The notes beneath the pieces were generated by a model that worked only from the letters and a program-made list of their open reading frames with translations, did not search any database and had not been told where the DNA came from. DNA of 64,000 nucleotides from an uncultured Bacteroidales bacterium (lineage in GTDB: Bacteria > Bacteroidota > Bacteroidia > Bacteroidales > WCHB1-69), in assembly GCA_905233585.1 (NCBI GenBank), contig CAJOFD010000009.1, positions 1 through 64,000 of the forward strand. The letters run 5' to 3'. Made by a program: the position numbers and the translations under genes. Positions 32,207-40,977 of the stretch are shown here, piece after piece (within the stretch, counting starts at the first letter, position 1; each line of letters starts with the position of its first letter).

Positions 32207-33109
32207 ATGGCAAGTAAAGTAAGAGTTTATGGTAAGGCACAGAATAGAACTGTGTTGGGTATTTTCAACGCGTATCTTGTAATGTATCCACATGCTACAT
32301 TAGAAGATTTTAAGAAAGCATTTCCAAAAGAGTTAAACCCCGATTCCGGTTGGAAGGTTAATGTACAAACATTGGAAGAATGTGACACAGAAAACGAGAA
32401 AAAGTTCTTCTTTACAGACGAAGAGGATGTGATTAAATTGCAAGACGGTACAAAGATGGTACTTTGCAAAATGTGGACAAAGCCAAGTTTTGAGCGTTTA
32501 GTCAATCATGCAAAACAATACGATATTGAAGTTGCAGAATTTACTGCTGCTGAAAAAGGTTTCGGTAAAAAGGGTGGATGGAGACTTGAATATTTAAATG
32601 GTTACGTTCCGCCTAAACCTGAAAAATCCAAAACCGGTTTGTATATTGCTTGTGCTGCCATTGTGTTTGTCGCAATTTTGACTTTCTTGTTGGCACGCAG
32701 TTGCAACAAAGAAACGCAAGTGGTGGAAAAAATAGTAACCGTTGTAGATACCGTTTATGTGCAACAGATTGAGGAAATGGAAAAGAATTTCAATGCGGCC
32801 GAATTTGAAAAAGGCAAAACGGATTTGAGCGATGCTTCTAAATTCGTGTTGCACGATTTGGCAAAATTAATGGAAAAACAACAATCTATAAAATTGAAAA
32901 TAGTAGGGCATACTTCTGCCGAAGGCGATGACGCTTTCAATCAAAAATTGTCGGAAAACAGGGCTAAAGCCGCTGTGGATTTTTGGGTTTCACAAGGTAT
33001 TGCACAAGACCGTCTGCAATGGGAAGGCAAAGGCAGCACAGAACTCAAAGATGCTGAAAATCCTGAATCAAATGTAAATAGAAGAACGGAATTTGTTGTA
33101 ATTGAATAA
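32207..33109 (+). CDS. Inner-membrane-anchored OmpA-domain protein with unknown N-terminal cytosolic domain
   Basis: The 300-residue protein has no signal peptide. Residues 1-135 form a soluble domain I do not recognise (KVRVYGKAQNRTVLGIFNAYL ... MWTKPSFERLVNHAKQYDI). A single transmembrane helix follows at about 144-163 (LYIACAAIVFVAILTFLLA) and an OmpA-like peptidoglycan-binding domain at about 195-300 (IVGHTSAEGDDAFNQKLSENRA, NRRTEFVV). In the OmpA consensus GHTD the Asp is Ser here; the second ligand Arg (ENRA) is kept. The topology puts domain one in the cytoplasm and the OmpA domain in the periplasm, bridging membrane and cell wall. It heads the island operon. Confidence 0.8.
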   Translation: MASKVRVYGKAQNRTVLGIFNAYLVMYPHATLEDFKKAFPKELNPDSGWKVNVQTLEECDTENEKKFFFTDEEDVIKLQDGTKMVLCKMWTKPSFERLVNHAKQYDIEVAEFTAAEKGFGKKGGWRLEYLNGYVPPKPEKSKTGLYIACAAIVFVAILTFLLARSCNKETQVVEKIVTVVDTVYVQQIEEMEKNFNAAEFEKGKTDLSDASKFVLHDLAKLMEKQQSIKLKIVGHTSAEGDDAFNQKLSENRAKAAVDFWVSQGIAQDRLQWEGKGSTELKDAENPESNVNRRTEFVVIE

Positions 33110-33137: not shown

Positions 33138-33542
33138 ATGAAAACTGAATCCAAAGTACTTTCTTCATTTCTTGCTGCTGCTGTTTGGGCTGACGGGGAA
33201 TATGATGAATTTGAAAAAGAATTTGTAAAAGAAGTTGGTGATGTACTTGAAATAAAGACACTTTCAACTGACTTGGAAAAAACAATCAAAGAAACGGAAA
33301 AAATGAACGAGGACGAATTGGCTTCGTTTTTGGAAACAGCAGCAAAAAAAGTGGCTGCAACGGAAAAGGAAGGTGTATTGACACTTTGCCTGCAAATGTT
33401 GTGTGCCGATGCTTTCTTGTCTATTGACGAAATGGAGAATTTCTTTGCTTTTGCAGACATTTTGGGGATAGACGAAGAAAAAGCAACTGCAATGCTTGAT
33501 GAATTTGTCGCTGAAGAAGAAGATTTGATTATAGAAGAATAA
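33138..33542 (+). CDS. TerB-like (tellurite-resistance / DjlA fold) acidic protein
   Basis: The 134-residue all-helical acidic protein has the TerB-type duplicated motif: AAAVWADGEYDEFEKEFVKEVGDVLEI near the N-terminus and LCADAFLSIDEMENFFAFADILGI near the C-terminus. The A-D-G/A-x-x-x-x-E pattern is the metal-binding acidic face of the TerB fold. TerB domains occur in Ter-type membrane-associated stress-response systems. It is 28 bases behind the OmpA gene and 19 before the basic-protein gene. Confidence 0.7.
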   Translation: MKTESKVLSSFLAAAVWADGEYDEFEKEFVKEVGDVLEIKTLSTDLEKTIKETEKMNEDELASFLETAAKKVAATEKEGVLTLCLQMLCADAFLSIDEMENFFAFADILGIDEEKATAMLDEFVAEEEDLIIEE

Positions 33543-33561
33543 CCTTAAAAAATTGAGAATT

Positions 33562-33831
33562 ATGGCAGTACAGAAAACAGCGTCCGGAAAAGTGGACAAA
33601 CGTACAAAAGAATACAAGGAAATGGTGGAACGTGCAAAAAAAGCACGTGAGGCACATAAAAAAGCCGCTACAAAACCGACTATTAAGAAAAAAACAACAG
33701 CACCAGCCAGACGTGCTGACGGTCGTCTGGACCAACGCACAAAAGCAGGTAAAGAAGCCGCTGAACGCATGGCTAAAGCCCGTAAGGCAAAAGGCAGTTT
33801 TGTCAACAAACTCAAAAGGTTGTTCAAATAA
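33562..33831 (+). CDS. Small histone-H1-like basic protein with two internal repeats
   Basis: From MAVQKTASGK the protein has 89 residues, about 40% Lys plus Arg and few acidic residues. Two copies of the same helix are visible: KVDKRTKEYKEMVERAKKAREA and RLDQRTKAGKEAAERMAKARKA, separated by an A/T/K/P-rich hinge and followed by a basic tail ending KLKRLFK. This suggests DNA or RNA binding. The track's three-codon extension (MRI) is dropped because ATG 33562 fits the pattern of the neighbours (ATGGCA). Confidence 0.7.
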   Translation: MAVQKTASGKVDKRTKEYKEMVERAKKAREAHKKAATKPTIKKKTTAPARRADGRLDQRTKAGKEAAERMAKARKAKGSFVNKLKRLFK

Positions 33832-33919: not shown

Positions 33920-34543
33920 ATGAAGAAAAATCTTTTGAAAGATGCTCAAGCGGTACTGAATGCCTACAAAAAAATGGAAACTTATCAGATTCAGCAAGAA
34001 GTGTTGGATAATCTTGTGGACAAGTTTCCTGATCATAAGAACAAGGCCGCTGTTGAAGTAAAGGTTAAATTGCTTAATTTATTATACTCTACAAATGTTC
34101 GGGCAACCAATAATATGATGAAACATATTCTTGAAATAAAGGATATTGACAAACGTTTGAAGAATGGAGACAAGACTTTGGTGCCGGAGATTGCTAATAT
34201 TAAAATTAGTGATAAAACATACAATTTTTACTCTTTTGCCACAAAATATTGTGCCTATCACCAATCCGACAAATTTCCCATTTATGACAATATCGTTGCT
34301 AATGTGCTAACTGCACTTTATGCAGATAAAAATAAAAAAGAGTTTGAAAAAAAGTTGAGGGAGTATGATTTCTATGTGCAGGTATATGATACTTTTATGA
34401 AAGAATATGGTCTTGCAGGACATTTCAAATATCGTGAAGTTGATAACTATATATGGGGAGCATACAAGATTGCAGGAGTAGACTTTGAGATAGAAAAATT
34501 GGCTCCAATAGACAAACGCAAGATTATTGAGGTAGAAATATAA
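33920..34543 (+). CDS. Hypothetical protein related in motif to the 31094 gene
   Basis: The 207-residue soluble protein begins MKKNLLKDAQAVLNAYKK. Its best-preserved segment, NFYSFATKYCAYHQSDKFPIYDNIVANVL at about residues 105-133, has the same helix-loop-P-I-x-D-x-x-V arrangement as ASFCSKLLSTINPDMPIWDQYV of the minus-strand gene at 31094. Around it are Lys/Glu-rich helices. I do not recognise a named family; an HhH-like nucleic-acid-binding fold is conjecture. It begins 88 bases after the basic-protein gene, beyond the hairpin. Confidence 0.6.
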   Translation: MKKNLLKDAQAVLNAYKKMETYQIQQEVLDNLVDKFPDHKNKAAVEVKVKLLNLLYSTNVRATNNMMKHILEIKDIDKRLKNGDKTLVPEIANIKISDKTYNFYSFATKYCAYHQSDKFPIYDNIVANVLTALYADKNKKEFEKKLREYDFYVQVYDTFMKEYGLAGHFKYREVDNYIWGAYKIAGVDFEIEKLAPIDKRKIIEVEI

Positions 34544-34567
34544 AATAAAAATAATAAAGATTCTGTG

Positions 34568-34993
34568 ATGAAAGTTTCCAAAATTACCGATGTTGAATTT
34601 GTTAAATATCATATAGATTTTGAACGTTATGTCCTTATTTATAGTTCAGATTTTGAGGCTATCTTTGATGAAAAAATGAAAGATACAAACAATTCAAATA
34701 TGTTGGAGGGACTAGTTAAAATTACAAACAATAACAATAAAAATAAAAAATCAGTATATAGAAAATGTATTGGAAGGCATGTCGAAAAGGATATCGTGCA
34801 AATGGGTTACAGAACTCAAAGCGAATTGGAGATAAAGTCTGGCAATGAAGTAGAGATAAAACCTGCAAAATGGTTTCCTTATTATTGGCATAATTCGGAT
34901 TCGTATTACAAATATCCTTTTAGGATAGCTTGTATTGCTTTAATTATAACATGTTTATCCTTTTTATTAAATATATTGTTTCTATTGTGGTGA
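34568..34993 (+). CDS. Tail-anchored membrane protein, unknown
   Basis: The 141-residue protein has an N-terminal soluble part and one C-terminal helix (ACIALIITCLSFLLNILFLLW), so it should sit in the membrane with its bulk in the cytoplasm. Residues 60-100 (SVYRKCIGRHVEKDIVQMGYRTQSELEIKSGNEVEIKP) alternate like a small double-psi beta-barrel, as in CDC48-N-type domains; this is a tentative reading. The track starts at GTG 34565; ATG 34568 is the natural start. Confidence 0.55.
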   Translation: MKVSKITDVEFVKYHIDFERYVLIYSSDFEAIFDEKMKDTNNSNMLEGLVKITNNNNKNKKSVYRKCIGRHVEKDIVQMGYRTQSELEIKSGNEVEIKPAKWFPYYWHNSDSYYKYPFRIACIALIITCLSFLLNILFLLW

Positions 34994-35041: not shown

Positions 35042-35791
35042 ATGGCAGAATTTAATATAGACGGTCGCATGCGTGTGGATTCCCTGCAGGCACAATTCAA
35101 AGAGGCATTCGGAGGAACTCTCCGTGTTTATTATCATCATCACTTTGCAGAAGCATCTGCCCGTTTGTCAGAAATTAGAAGTGAAAATGCACCTGCTACT
35201 GGTGAATTAAAAGTCAATGGAAATATGCAGGTTGGCACTTTTGAGGAAAAAATGATGGAACAATTTGGTATAGAGGTGCAAGTTGCTGATGCCAACAACG
35301 AAGTTTTGATTGAAAACGGGGCAACCTTACGAAATGCGGCCAATGCGAAAGCAAAGGCAGCATATCAACAACAAGACTATTCTCGAGAATATTGGGTTGA
35401 AACATCTTGTGAACAAAATGTGGTTTTGTCAGAACATGTGATAGACTTGTTGAATGAATGTACAGGTAAGAAATATGAACCTGTATTCAGACAAGTATAT
35501 ATCGGGATAAAATTTGATGACAAACCCTGCAATTTTATAACATTAACACCGCAGAAACGGGAATTGCTTCTTTCAATAAGTGTTGCGGAAAGTGCCAAAC
35601 ATCAAGAAATTTTTGACAAGTATTTTGATGGGGATGTTAAATATAATAAAGGTGTTTATCAATTGAAAATCAATACTGAAGATACCGAAAAGAAAGGTGG
35701 TTTTTTCAAAAAATTATTGGGCAAAGCGGCAAGCAATATAGATCAACTCAAACCGATATTATTACAAGCGGAAAAAGAATATAGAAAATAA
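35042..35791 (+). CDS. Two-lobed 'DGRMKV' domain protein with extra C-terminal domain (paralogue 1)
   Basis: Residues 1-100 form a domain made of two similar halves: FNIDGRMRVDSLQAQFKEAFG..LRVY and LKVNGNMQVGTFEEKMMEQFGIEVQVA. The same arrangement occurs in the genes at 35828 and 36444. Here it is extended by about 150 residues (residues 110-249) with no recognised motif, including YIGIKFDDKPCNFITLTPQKRELLLSI and a basic stretch KKGGFFKKLLGKAAS. No signal peptide or membrane segment. I do not recognise the family. The shared upstream leader indicates tandem duplication. Confidence 0.65.
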   Translation: MAEFNIDGRMRVDSLQAQFKEAFGGTLRVYYHHHFAEASARLSEIRSENAPATGELKVNGNMQVGTFEEKMMEQFGIEVQVADANNEVLIENGATLRNAANAKAKAAYQQQDYSREYWVETSCEQNVVLSEHVIDLLNECTGKKYEPVFRQVYIGIKFDDKPCNFITLTPQKRELLLSISVAESAKHQEIFDKYFDGDVKYNKGVYQLKINTEDTEKKGGFFKKLLGKAASNIDQLKPILLQAEKEYRK

Positions 35792-35800
35792 AAATAAAAA

Positions 35801-35827
35801 TAAGTATTAACCAATTAAAATAATATT
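35801..35827 (+). repeat. Leader repeat, copy 2 (GTATTAACCAATTAAAATAA)
   Basis: Same position relative to the start codon as copies 1 and 3; it shares GTATTAACCAATTAAAA with copy 3. Confidence 0.6.
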
Positions 35828-36376
35828 ATGGCAACAACAAAGAAACCAGCCGTTAAGAAATCCGCAGCTAAACCTGCAGCCAGGAAAACCACAACAGTTG
35901 CAAAGACAGCAACTTCGACAAAGAAAACTGCAGCGAAGCCTGCGGCTAAATCTGTAGCAAAGAAAACAACTACAGTGAAGACGACTGTTGAATTGTCGGT
36001 AACTGGAAACAAGAAGGTGGAAACTTTGATGAAAGAATTTACAAAGAAATTTCCATATCTTCGTTTGCGTATTTATTCAGGAGAAGCCAAAAAAGTTTCG
36101 GGCTCATTGACTCCATATAGGGTTGACATATCTAAAACTCTAGCATCAGTACGCGATAAAAGTGCAAAAGGTGGAGATATATCCATTAGCGGCAATAAGA
36201 AAATCAAGACCTTGGAAAAAGAATTTGATACCGTATTCGGTCTGTATGTACAAGTATGCTACACTGCAAAAGACGGACATCGTTATTATACCAGCGGTAC
36301 TGCTGACGAGATGACCCTCGCCGCCTTCAATAGGAAGTGCGAAGCCGATGGCTGCAAAAAAGATGAATGGAAGTAA
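35828..36376 (+). CDS. Histone-like Lys/Ala tail fused to the two-lobed domain (paralogue 2)
   Basis: In the 182-residue protein, residues 1-55 are a low-complexity Lys/Ala/Thr/Pro tail (KKPAVKKSAAKPAARKTTTVAK...) like those of eukaryotic H1 and bacterial H1-like proteins. Residues 56-165 carry the two lobes: LSVTGNKKVETLMKEFTKKFPYLRLRIY and ISISGNKKIKTLEKEFDTVFGLYVQV. A short Lys/Cys-containing end follows. The fusion suggests that this paralogue binds nucleic acid or another polyanion. That is inference from composition only. Confidence 0.65.
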   Translation: MATTKKPAVKKSAAKPAARKTTTVAKTATSTKKTAAKPAAKSVAKKTTTVKTTVELSVTGNKKVETLMKEFTKKFPYLRLRIYSGEAKKVSGSLTPYRVDISKTLASVRDKSAKGGDISISGNKKIKTLEKEFDTVFGLYVQVCYTAKDGHRYYTSGTADEMTLAAFNRKCEADGCKKDEWK

Positions 36377-36410
36377 AATCGGATAGATAAAAATTTAAAT
36401 TAATCAAATA

Positions 36411-36443
36411 AACATAGTATTAACCAATTAAAAAATTAAAGTT
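36411..36443 (+). repeat. Leader repeat, copy 3 (ACATAGTATTAACCAATTAAAA)
   Basis: Contains both the ACATAGTATTAA of copy 1 and the GTATTAACCAATTAAAA of copy 2, directly before ATG 36444. Confidence 0.6.
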
Positions 36444-36758
36444 ATGGCAGAATTTAACATTGACGGAAGAATGAAGGTAAAAACCTTGAAATCCAAGTTC
36501 AAAGAAGCGTTTGGTGCATCTTTGCGTGTTTACATGAATGTATCAAGCAAAGGTCGTATGGCGGATGAGGAAGCAACATTGGCAAGCATTCGTGCTGAAG
36601 GTGCCAAAGGTGGCGAACTTGCTGTAAAAGGCAACATGAAAGTCGGCAATTTTGAAAACAAAATAGCTGAAATGTATGGTATTGGTGTACAGGTAGCCAA
36701 TGCAGATGACTCCAAACTTGCAGACAATGAGGCAACCCTCATTCAAGCCGGAAAGTAA
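36444..36758 (+). CDS. Minimal two-lobed 'DGRMKV' domain protein (paralogue 3)
   Basis: This 104-residue protein consists of the two lobes alone: FNIDGRMKVKTLKSKFKEAFGASLRVY, linker with ATLASIRAEGAKGGE, then LAVKGNMKVGNFENKIAEMYGIGVQVA and a short end with EATLIQAG. It is the simplest copy and defines the domain borders for the other two. No catalytic residues stand out. The soluble small size suggests a binding or signalling module. Family not recognised. Confidence 0.7.
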   Translation: MAEFNIDGRMKVKTLKSKFKEAFGASLRVYMNVSSKGRMADEEATLASIRAEGAKGGELAVKGNMKVGNFENKIAEMYGIGVQVANADDSKLADNEATLIQAGK

Positions 36759-37083: not shown

Positions 37084-37326
37084 ATGAGCAAAGAGTATTA
37101 TCGTAAGAAAATTATTGATTTGCGGGCGAGTCTGCAAAAAGAAAAAGATGCCAAAAAACGAGACAACGAACATTATGCAAGCCTGATAAAGGGAGCGTCA
37201 ACGCCATCGTTAAAGGCCTCGTATAGAAAATCAAAAATTGACTATGCCGCTAGACACGACCGTAACATCGAGTCGCTAAAACGACAGATAGAAAGTGCCA
37301 AAGAATCGCTGAAAAGAGAAAAATAA
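37084..37326 (+). CDS. Small basic coiled-coil protein
   Basis: The 80-residue protein (MSKEYYRKKIIDLRASLQKEKDAKK...) consists almost entirely of charged helix with a break at KGASTPSLKASYRKSK. Heptad-like spacing of L/I residues at both ends suggests a helical hairpin. No signal peptide. Family not recognised. It starts the second half of the island run, 45 bases before the voltage-sensor channel gene, so it may be a channel partner. Confidence 0.55.
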   Translation: MSKEYYRKKIIDLRASLQKEKDAKKRDNEHYASLIKGASTPSLKASYRKSKIDYAARHDRNIESLKRQIESAKESLKREK

Positions 37327-37370: not shown

Positions 37371-39110
37371 ATGAGTAGAATCGCGAGTTTTAAACGTGAA
37401 CTTTCACGTGTTTTTGATGACAACCTGCACACCAAACAATGGCACAATTATGTGGATTATACCATTATTGGATTGATTATAATCAGTACTTTGGAAGTGT
37501 TCATCTCCACTTTCGCAGGGGTAGAACAACGTTTCGGCAAAATACTGATATTTATTGATATTTTTACTGTCATTATTTTTACAATTGAAGTTTCTCTCCG
37601 CATTTGGTGTGCTGACCTGATTGACGACAAATACAAAGGTTTTCTCGGAAGGATACGCTATTGTTGCAGTTTCTATGGATTAATAGATATTCTGTCAACA
37701 TATCCTTTTTATTTGAGTTTCTTATTTCCTTTTCCCTATACTGCCCTCAAAGTTTTGCGAATAGCCCGTTTGTTGAGAGTCTTTCGCTATATGCATTCAT
37801 TCCGTTTGTTGGCAGAGGCTTTTAAGTCTAAAAAGAATGAATTGTGGGTTTCTGTTCAGTTTTTGGCGATTGTAACAATCATATTGTCGCTTATCTTGTT
37901 TTTTGTAGAACACAAGGCACAGCCTGAAACTTATGCAAACGGTTGGGATTCTGTTGCATGGGCTTTTCTTCAATATGTTGGCGATCCGGGCGGATTTGCC
38001 GACAATCCGCCTATTACTTCTATAGGACAAATTATAGCCGTATTGGTGGGGATACTTGGAATAGCGATATTTGCTGTGCCTGCAGGTCTTATCGGATCCG
38101 GATTTACAGAAGTTATGGAAAAAGAACAAAAAGAGGAGAAGCGTCAAAATGATATAGATAAGATAAACGCAATTTTCCGGTACGTACAATGTCGTTACAC
38201 AAAATATTTACTGGTTCCCAAATATATGTCAATAACAGACATACAGGCACAACAGGGTATAAGCCAACCCAATATTATCGAAGCCGTTTCCGCTTCTGAT
38301 TTTTTGCGTTTGCGTAATATCGCCACCACTCGTCCAGTGGAAGAAAAACCAGCAGATAAACTTGTTGTAGAATGTTTTCCTAAAAACAGACCGTATGGCT
38401 GCTGTATCAATAGGGGTTCAAAGGTTACAATTGTTTCCACTTCCAGTTGCAGTGAGGCTGTAATCGGTAATTTTTCGTATTATCTTGCCATGATTGGAGG
38501 TTTTAATTATGTAAGTAAAGAAATTGAGTTTGATAGCAAATATCCTATAACATATTATAATATCAACGATAGGAATGCTTGTCCCAATTTGCCTCTTTTT
38601 CTTAATGATATAGATAGTCTTGCAAAAACCGAAGATAGTTGGGTTGTTTTTCTACTTTCGGCCAGTGGAGGTCAAGAACCTGTATATCCAACGCAGTTTC
38701 ACTATATAATAGGTGCGCAAAAAGGTGATGAAACTTATAATGACCCCAATATAACAATAAAAGATGTTGCCGTATTTGATGCGATGTACAATGAATTGAC
38801 AGAAACAATACAATCTCAATTCGGGTTAAATTCAGACAGACACAAATATTATGGTTCTTCCCCCAGAAACATAAGCCGCCATATCTGTCAAGGAAGAAAA
38901 ATCAATGCTTTTACCATAAGGATTGCATGGAGCGTAACTTGTTGGGATTATCGCAATACATTAATTTCCAAAACTATGGCAGATATATTCAACAAGCATT
39001 TTGAACCTGAAGTGCAGAAAGAATATTCATCGGAATTGACCATTCGCAAACCTAAAATGGACTATGGTTACACATTTTATTCCGACCTGATTGAGAATGA
39101 AAAAAGTTAA
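37371..39110 (+). CDS. Voltage-sensor ion channel (Kv-like) with non-canonical selectivity filter and large C-terminal domain
   Basis: In the 579-residue protein, six transmembrane helices lie in residues 28-245. S4 at about 127-145 reads LKVLRIARLLRVFRYMHSF with a basic residue at every third position. The pore helix WDSVAWAFLQ leads to YVGDPGGF (202-209) where K+ channels have TVGYGD. S6 GILGIAIFAVPAGLIGSGF is of the bacterial Kv type with the AVPAG hinge. The remaining 325 residues are cytosolic and carry no domain I can name. Ion selectivity cannot be predicted because the K+ signature is missing. The stop overlaps the peptidase start (TAATG), so the two products are probably coupled. Confidence 0.8.
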   Translation: MSRIASFKRELSRVFDDNLHTKQWHNYVDYTIIGLIIISTLEVFISTFAGVEQRFGKILIFIDIFTVIIFTIEVSLRIWCADLIDDKYKGFLGRIRYCCSFYGLIDILSTYPFYLSFLFPFPYTALKVLRIARLLRVFRYMHSFRLLAEAFKSKKNELWVSVQFLAIVTIILSLILFFVEHKAQPETYANGWDSVAWAFLQYVGDPGGFADNPPITSIGQIIAVLVGILGIAIFAVPAGLIGSGFTEVMEKEQKEEKRQNDIDKINAIFRYVQCRYTKYLLVPKYMSITDIQAQQGISQPNIIEAVSASDFLRLRNIATTRPVEEKPADKLVVECFPKNRPYGCCINRGSKVTIVSTSSCSEAVIGNFSYYLAMIGGFNYVSKEIEFDSKYPITYYNINDRNACPNLPLFLNDIDSLAKTEDSWVVFLLSASGGQEPVYPTQFHYIIGAQKGDETYNDPNITIKDVAVFDAMYNELTETIQSQFGLNSDRHKYYGSSPRNISRHICQGRKINAFTIRIAWSVTCWDYRNTLISKTMADIFNKHFEPEVQKEYSSELTIRKPKMDYGYTFYSDLIENEKS

Positions 39111-39852: not shown

Positions 39853-40677
39853 ATGGAAATGAGAAATTTATTTAAGGGTATTTTCTTGAATGACAAGTTC
39901 ATTCTTGCTGTAATACTGCTCAATTCCTACATTATTTATATGCAAGTTTCAGGATATGAAAGTTTTACTATTAGTTTGTTGGATGCACTATGTACTTTGA
40001 TATTTTTGGTGGAAATGATTATCAAACACATGGAGTATGGTTTTAAGGGATATTGGAAAAATGGCTGGAACCGTTTGGACGGAATATTGGTTATATTATC
40101 GTTGCCGTCTTTGGTAGAATTGTTTATTCCATTGGAAATGTTCAATTTGTCATTTTTGTTGATATTTCGTTTATTGCGTGTGCTGAGATTTTTCCGTGTG
40201 TTGCATTTCTTTCCTAATTTCAGCAAAGTGGTACAGGGATTTAAAGTGGCATTGAGAGAATCGTATGCGATATTATTAAGTTTCTTTGTCATTATTGTGA
40301 TATTCGGCTTGCTCAACTGTAGCCTGTTTCAGACTGCCGATCCTGAACATTTTCAAACGCCTCTCCGTTCCATTTATGCCGTATTCCAAATTTGTACGGT
40401 GGAGGGTTGGTACGAAATTCCCGATACTATTGCTACATATTATGGCTCTGCGTCAATAATGGCAGATATTGTGCGTATCTATTTTTGCTTGATATTGATT
40501 TTGGGTGGTATAATAGGTATGTCTTTTATCAATTCCATTTTTGTAGATGCAATGGTTGCCGATAACAATGACGATGTCAAAGCCCAACTTCATGAGATGG
40601 AACAAAAAATGGATAACAACAATAAAAAATGGGAACAGGATATAGAAGATATTAAGCAATTACTAAAAAATAAATAA
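39853..40677 (+). CDS. Bacterial Nav-like voltage-gated cation channel
   Basis: In the 274-residue protein, six transmembrane segments include an S4 with arginines at 106, 109, 112 and 115 (FRLLRVLRFFRVLHFF). The pore is FQICTVEGWYEIPD, which aligns with the BacNav filter FQxxTLESW; E184 corresponds to the filter glutamate that gives Na+/Ca2+ selectivity. S6 (GIIGMSFINSIFVDAMV) is followed by a polar C-terminal coiled coil (VKAQLHEMEQKMDNNNKKWEQDIEDIKQLL), as in NaChBac-type tetramers. One such subunit would form a homotetramer. It follows the peptidase by five bases. Confidence 0.85.
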   Translation: MEMRNLFKGIFLNDKFILAVILLNSYIIYMQVSGYESFTISLLDALCTLIFLVEMIIKHMEYGFKGYWKNGWNRLDGILVILSLPSLVELFIPLEMFNLSFLLIFRLLRVLRFFRVLHFFPNFSKVVQGFKVALRESYAILLSFFVIIVIFGLLNCSLFQTADPEHFQTPLRSIYAVFQICTVEGWYEIPDTIATYYGSASIMADIVRIYFCLILILGGIIGMSFINSIFVDAMVADNNDDVKAQLHEMEQKMDNNNKKWEQDIEDIKQLLKNK

Positions 40678-40680
40678 ATT

Positions 40681-40977
40681 ATGGCAATATTTCTTTGGTT
40701 ATGGAACTTGGTTTCGCCTATAGTAGTGGCGATGGGTATGTTGTATGTTTTTACTGGTACCCCTGATACGCTTGTGTTTGTACTTGGCGGTATAGCATCG
40801 GCATTGGGATTGATAATAGGTATTGTCGGTTGGGGGGACATGGTGCCACCTCGTTGGTTTTGGATAAAAAGTCGTACTGATTTAGCTGGAAGCCGTATCG
40901 GGACAGCGATTTCCTATGCCATACAATTTTTCTTTATCCCTGCCTTTGTCATAGGTTTGATAGAATATTTCGGATAA
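40681..40977 (+). CDS. Small integral membrane protein
   Basis: The 98-residue protein starts four bases after the Nav-like gene. Three hydrophobic segments are visible (LWNLVSPIVVAMGMLYVF, LVFVLGGIASALGLIIGIVGW, ISYAIQFFFIPAFVIGLIEYF) with a polar loop VPPRWFWIKSRTDLAGSR. No family recognised. The tight spacing suggests an accessory subunit or the last product of the channel operon. Confidence 0.65.
   Translation: MAIFLWLWNLVSPIVVAMGMLYVFTGTPDTLVFVLGGIASALGLIIGIVGWGDMVPPRWFWIKSRTDLAGSRIGTAISYAIQFFFIPAFVIGLIEYFG

Follow-up and report, generated by a model that had tools for sequence, protein, structure and literature searches.

The described systems closest to the element analysed here are built around ubiquitin-like proteins (Ubls). 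The bacterial ISG15-like (Bil) anti-phage systems conjugate their Ubl (PMC11364771), and the prokaryotic Ubl operons carry E1, E2 and JAB genes (Iyer 2006, PMC1779556). We have studied a window of 64,000 nucleotides from an uncultured Bacteroidales bacterium (assembly GCA_905233585.1, contig CAJOFD010000009.1, positions 1 to 64,000), in which three tandem genes encode paralogues sharing an unnamed two-lobed domain. As in the Bil systems and Ubl operons, small, sometimes tandem and perhaps ubiquitin-like proteins are encoded in multi-gene operons, but the E1, E2 and JAB genes of those systems contrast with the islands described here, which show no E1 and no JAB. The nearest solved folds to the model of the shortest paralogue (104 amino acids, aa) are linear di-ubiquitin and ISG15, with which it would share two successive beta-grasp-like lobes per chain; our domain differs from them in its weak structural score, its shorter lobes (~50 residues each) and the lack of both a Gly-Gly end and conjugation genes. 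The stress neighbourhoods of the Ter type share a TerB-family gene with 13 of 45 domain-bearing loci, but TerB is the only member of the Ter set seen there, and the island core consists of an OmpA anchor, a channel, a kinase and the two-lobed domain. Finally, the capsid decoration family PhiKZ gp244 (PF25621) matches part of the domain weakly (E=0.022), at 15.3 bits against a cut-off of 27 and in one of 50 members. We propose, with a probability of about 0.45, that the domain would serve for docking, without being conjugated, in a stress or anti-phage island of Bacteroidota that has yet to be described.

The three genes lie on the forward strand. The first (35042..35791, +) encodes a protein of 249 aa with the two-lobed domain at residues 1-101, followed by a C-terminal extension of ~148 residues without a family match. 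A DUF5655-type resemblance of this extension (148 residues, window 35345-35791) was suspected by eye only. The second (35828..36376, +; 182 aa, group C) begins with a tail of 52 residues rich in K, A and T that precedes the domain, and the third (36444..36758, +; 104 aa, group A) is the bare domain, ending in -AGK. Over a shared domain of ~100 residues, the 104-aa protein matched its two neighbours with E=2.5e-25 (56% identity) and 1.5e-9 (37%), and a search of the source genome with it recovered no copies beyond the three of this tandem. These open reading frames and E values bear out a sequence-only reading of the window that had reported three tandem paralogues with a common domain. The histone-like tail that it had assigned to one of them is indeed basic (K+R 29%, A 25% and T 25% over residues 1-52 of the 182-aa protein), with the correction that it is N-terminal. 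Its half-repeat motif, opening with G-[RN]-M-K-V, fits well in the proteins starting at 35042 and 36444, but the 182-aa copy has GNKK in both halves, with insertions.

The two halves of the domain are homologous and arose by internal duplication, as had been suspected from the sequence. Profile-profile comparison of half 1 with half 2 (hhalign, 50 members) gave a probability of 97% and E=1.2e-10, with 33% identity over 48 columns, and the Smith-Waterman scores of half against half in single sequences stood well above those of shuffles, with z=10.2 for the protein at 36444, 6.4 for 35042 and 9.7 for 35828 (0, 1 and 0, respectively, of 2000 shuffles reached the real score). The domain family is real, conserved and unnamed. 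A hit to a well-described Pfam domain would have refuted the sequence-only reading, but Pfam gave no match above cut-off for the three window proteins or for 50 diverse relatives; NCBIfam likewise gave none above cut-off for the domain and PADLOC none with a significant E value, so the claim of an unnamed domain stands. No relative was found by sequence in the Protein Data Bank (PDB), no match in the plasmid and phage collections, and none of the 26 pattern matches in viral contigs was a true relative. The open-access literature searched yielded no description of the domain or of the island. The guess that such proteins carry the annotation label "viral A-type inclusion protein" led nowhere. 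A distant branch, whose members are 123-140 aa long, come from other Bacteroidota and likewise lack a Pfam name, is homologous to the family (hhalign probability 98.6%, E=4.8e-16), and the 182-aa protein of the window matches the profile of this branch with E=4.8e-18.

A model of the 104-aa protein built from a 50-sequence alignment reached a mean predicted local distance difference test score (pLDDT) of 88.6 and a predicted template modelling score (pTM) of 0.75, with a strand-helix-strand arrangement in each half (E3-6 H12-23 E26-30; E59-62 H67-78 E81-85). Its top 16 fold matches in the PDB were all linear di-ubiquitin, polyubiquitin or ISG15, if weak (E 0.04-0.4), and single halves superposed on ubiquitin-fold domains at about 2 Å over ~45 columns. 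The sequence profile of the family also touches ubiquitins, below significance. A second model, of the domain of the 182-aa protein aligned with the distant branch, scored a pLDDT of 90.0 and a pTM of 0.84. Judging from these predictions, a tandem beta-grasp (ubiquitin-like) fold is likely for group A and unproven for the family as a whole.

Besides the bare domain of ~100 residues (group A, with a C-terminal -AGK in 31 of 46 proteins), two further groups of paralogues could be distinguished. Group B has a conserved N-terminal segment of 12 residues, MG(L/I)(L/I)NN..D.F, resembling an amphipathic helix, and most members of group C have a K/A/T-rich tail of 46-80 residues. The domain also occurs in several fusions: N-terminal to an OmpA-type anchor with one hydrophobic segment (L035, L039 and L040), C-terminal to leucine-rich repeats of the BspA type (L030), and joined to itself in a 202-aa protein made of two full domains, that is, four half-repeats (L053-L056). 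Together with the K/A/T tails, this variety across genomes agrees with the duplicated module with varied fusions that had been read from the window alone. In three of these loci (L053, L054 and L056) the double-domain protein lies directly downstream of a uvrA-like gene. In other islands the same place in the OmpA protein is taken by a different small N-terminal domain ("NTRQ", recognised by eye), and this alternation of small domains at one position suggests that they are docking modules. The substitute, also unnamed (..ALREIA...WNTRQxGxKL..), occurs in tandem as well and also ends a PDDEXK_4 protein; its occurrences are L033:918-2147, L047:6088-7290, L063:5760-6911, L025:8388-8840 and L021:3703-5271. 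In the periplasm, an OmpA domain normally attaches to peptidoglycan, so the N-terminal two-lobed domain of the fusion should face the cytoplasm. Architecture and neighbours together would fit a binding or adaptor module.

A scan of GTDB genomes with a pattern plus tblastn found 44 loci with the domain, mostly in metagenome-assembled genomes (MAGs) of Bacteroidales from gut and rumen, the other hosts being Flavobacteriales, Cytophagales, Salibacteraceae and one genome of Helicobacter cetorum. The distribution is patchy, with the domain present in 7 of 60 relatives and, phylum-wide, in 10 of 396 genomes. Whole-genome searches, made in six cases, placed every copy of a genome at a single locus. 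The Helicobacter locus (L050, 7929-10957) contains three copies together with a KAP-DUF4268 NTPase and a GmrSD gene; since this was the only genome with the domain among 200 of Campylobacterota, the occurrence looks like a transfer or a mis-binned or contaminating contig. A tree of 58 domains recovered group B as a clade (support 100/99) and group C together with the distant branch as another (97/92), with many forks unresolved. Each of groups A, B and C includes both Bacteroidales and Flavobacteriales, and for this reason they look like old paralogues often retained together.

The genes around the tandem in the window are also on the forward strand. Upstream there is an OmpA-type anchor (32207..33109, +) with one hydrophobic segment at ~142-167, whose relatives in L035, L039 and L040 are the domain fusions described above, followed by a TerB-family protein (33138..33542, +; 29.2 bits against a cut-off of 24.4), a small basic protein (33553..33831, +) present in 4 of the 45 loci, a 207-aa protein without a family match (33920..34543, +), of which a similar-looking counterpart was seen by eye between two domain copies in L044, and a 142-aa protein (34565..34993, +) with a hydrophobic segment at its C-terminus (~117-142). 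Downstream come an 80-aa protein, coiled-coil-like by eye (37084..37326, +), an Ion_trans ion channel with a long C-terminal region (37371..39110, +), a second Ion_trans channel (39853..40677, +) and a small hydrophobic protein of 98 aa (40681..40977, +) conserved in 12 of the 45 loci. The coiled-coil 80-mer is the commonest conserved neighbour within 6 kb of the domain (29 of 45 loci), followed by OmpA (25), Ion_trans (19), a Ser/Thr kinase (17), TerB (13), a PD-(D/E)XK-like cluster labelled by eye from an ExK-type motif (12) and KAP NTPases (10). Within 4 kb, all 137 of 137 core neighbours from nine families shared the strand of the domain copy closest to them, these families having been chosen as real genes, which leaves out antisense shadows. 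Ion_trans channels were found in 6 of 7 domain-positive relatives, against 12 of 53 domain-negative ones, and in four genomes (G000, G004, G014 and G031) no more than ~1 kb separates a channel from a domain copy. A weaker-scoring Ion_trans type of ~580 aa was seen, among the 60 relatives, in G000, G003 and G031, all domain-positive; in G033, which lacks the domain, the long channel frame is of another kind (690 aa).

Between or beside the domain copies there is a gene that varies from one locus to another: an SRA-PvuRts1I modification-dependent endonuclease in L049, a GIY-YIG protein in L061 and L062, PDDEXK_4 in L038 and L039, ASCH in L051, and GmrSD plus KAP in the Helicobacter locus. PADLOC recognised methyl-directed restriction endonuclease (REase) and PD-T4-3 proteins among the neighbours. 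The domain is co-located with known defence effectors (methyl-directed REase, PD-T4-3, PDDEXK_4, GmrSD and KAP), as counted without a background rate. Judged by architecture, the pairing of an unvarying core with a swappable nuclease would be that of a conflict system.

Three other explanations have to be considered. Given the ubiquitin-like fold matches in tandem and the very constant C-terminus of group A, one would be a modifier attached covalently to its targets, as in the Bil systems. None of the 46 group A proteins ends in Gly-Gly, however, and in nine island-bearing genomes there was no ThiF/E1-like gene on the island contig and no Prok-JAB match above cut-off (E2 was not searched separately). 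The domain may therefore look like di-ubiquitin and yet it does not fit conjugation systems; covalent conjugation is largely refuted and we regard this explanation as very improbable. Also improbable in our view is a nucleic-acid-binding protein or one derived from a phage capsid. It would account for the conserved K/A/T-rich tails of group C, for a weak HC2-like match, for the PhiKZ gp244 match and for that of the 182-aa protein to the capsid decoration protein Soc (E=0.0041), both below cut-off, and for a structural match to a protein of an Erwinia jumbo phage (template modelling score, TM, ~0.5; E=0.043). Such tails are confined to one group of paralogues, though, the PhiKZ match is sub-threshold and limited to one of 50 members, and the phage and viral collections contained no relative. 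An origin as capsid decoration was rejected, the matches being sub-threshold.

The main rival, which we consider unlikely, is a general module of envelope or energy stress rather than a defence system. The domain would then sense or relay stress of the redox or membrane kind, and the nucleases would be incidental, coming from a defence-rich integration site. By sequence, the 182-aa paralogue connects the distant branch with the island proteins. In 4 of 8 genomes this branch lies ~25 bp to 1 kb from universal-stress (Usp) genes, and inspection by eye also showed genes of the CBS, Hsp20, response-regulator and copper-ATPase-like types nearby (L079-L086). TerB, OmpA and ion channels, moreover, are stress and envelope functions too. 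Against it, several islands have nucleases of different types directly between or beside the domain copies and on the same strand, as expected of swappable effectors.

The docking role that we favour has to be held against several observations as well. The company of the distant branch points to general stress over phage defence, and many of the neighbour data are drawn from mutually related MAGs of gut and rumen Bacteroidales. As to the fold, the best PDB match of the 104-aa model has E 0.038 and a whole-chain TM of only 0.35, and the model of the 182-aa copy recovered no ubiquitin fold except for one RA domain at rank 17.

If the docking role is right, the two small lobes, probably degenerate beta-grasp folds, would act as a non-covalent docking or adaptor module. 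Binding would occur among the soluble copies (those of groups A, B and C) and between them and a membrane hub. This hub would be the OmpA-type protein attached to the cell wall, to which the domain is fused in some genomes, on the presumed cytoplasmic side. The hub, with its kinase and TerB partners, might then control the outputs: ion channels that would depolarise the membrane, KAP NTPases and the nuclease of the variable slot. Through its basic tail, the 182-aa copy may be brought to nucleic acid. That the islands form a modular immune or stress system with an unconjugated di-ubiquitin-like core, in which soluble copies and a cell-wall-anchored copy make up a scaffold activating exchangeable nucleases and ion channels, we regard as quite unlikely.

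The family comprises several old paralogue branches, extends over several orders of Bacteroidota and one Helicobacter genome, and is absent from the libraries searched, and naming the domain would annotate many hypothetical proteins. With their kinase, membrane anchor, channel and exchangeable nucleases, the islands resemble signalling-type immune systems and so provide a concrete candidate for such a system in gut and rumen Bacteroidales. They may also represent a case of tandem ubiquitin-like folds serving purely as docking parts.
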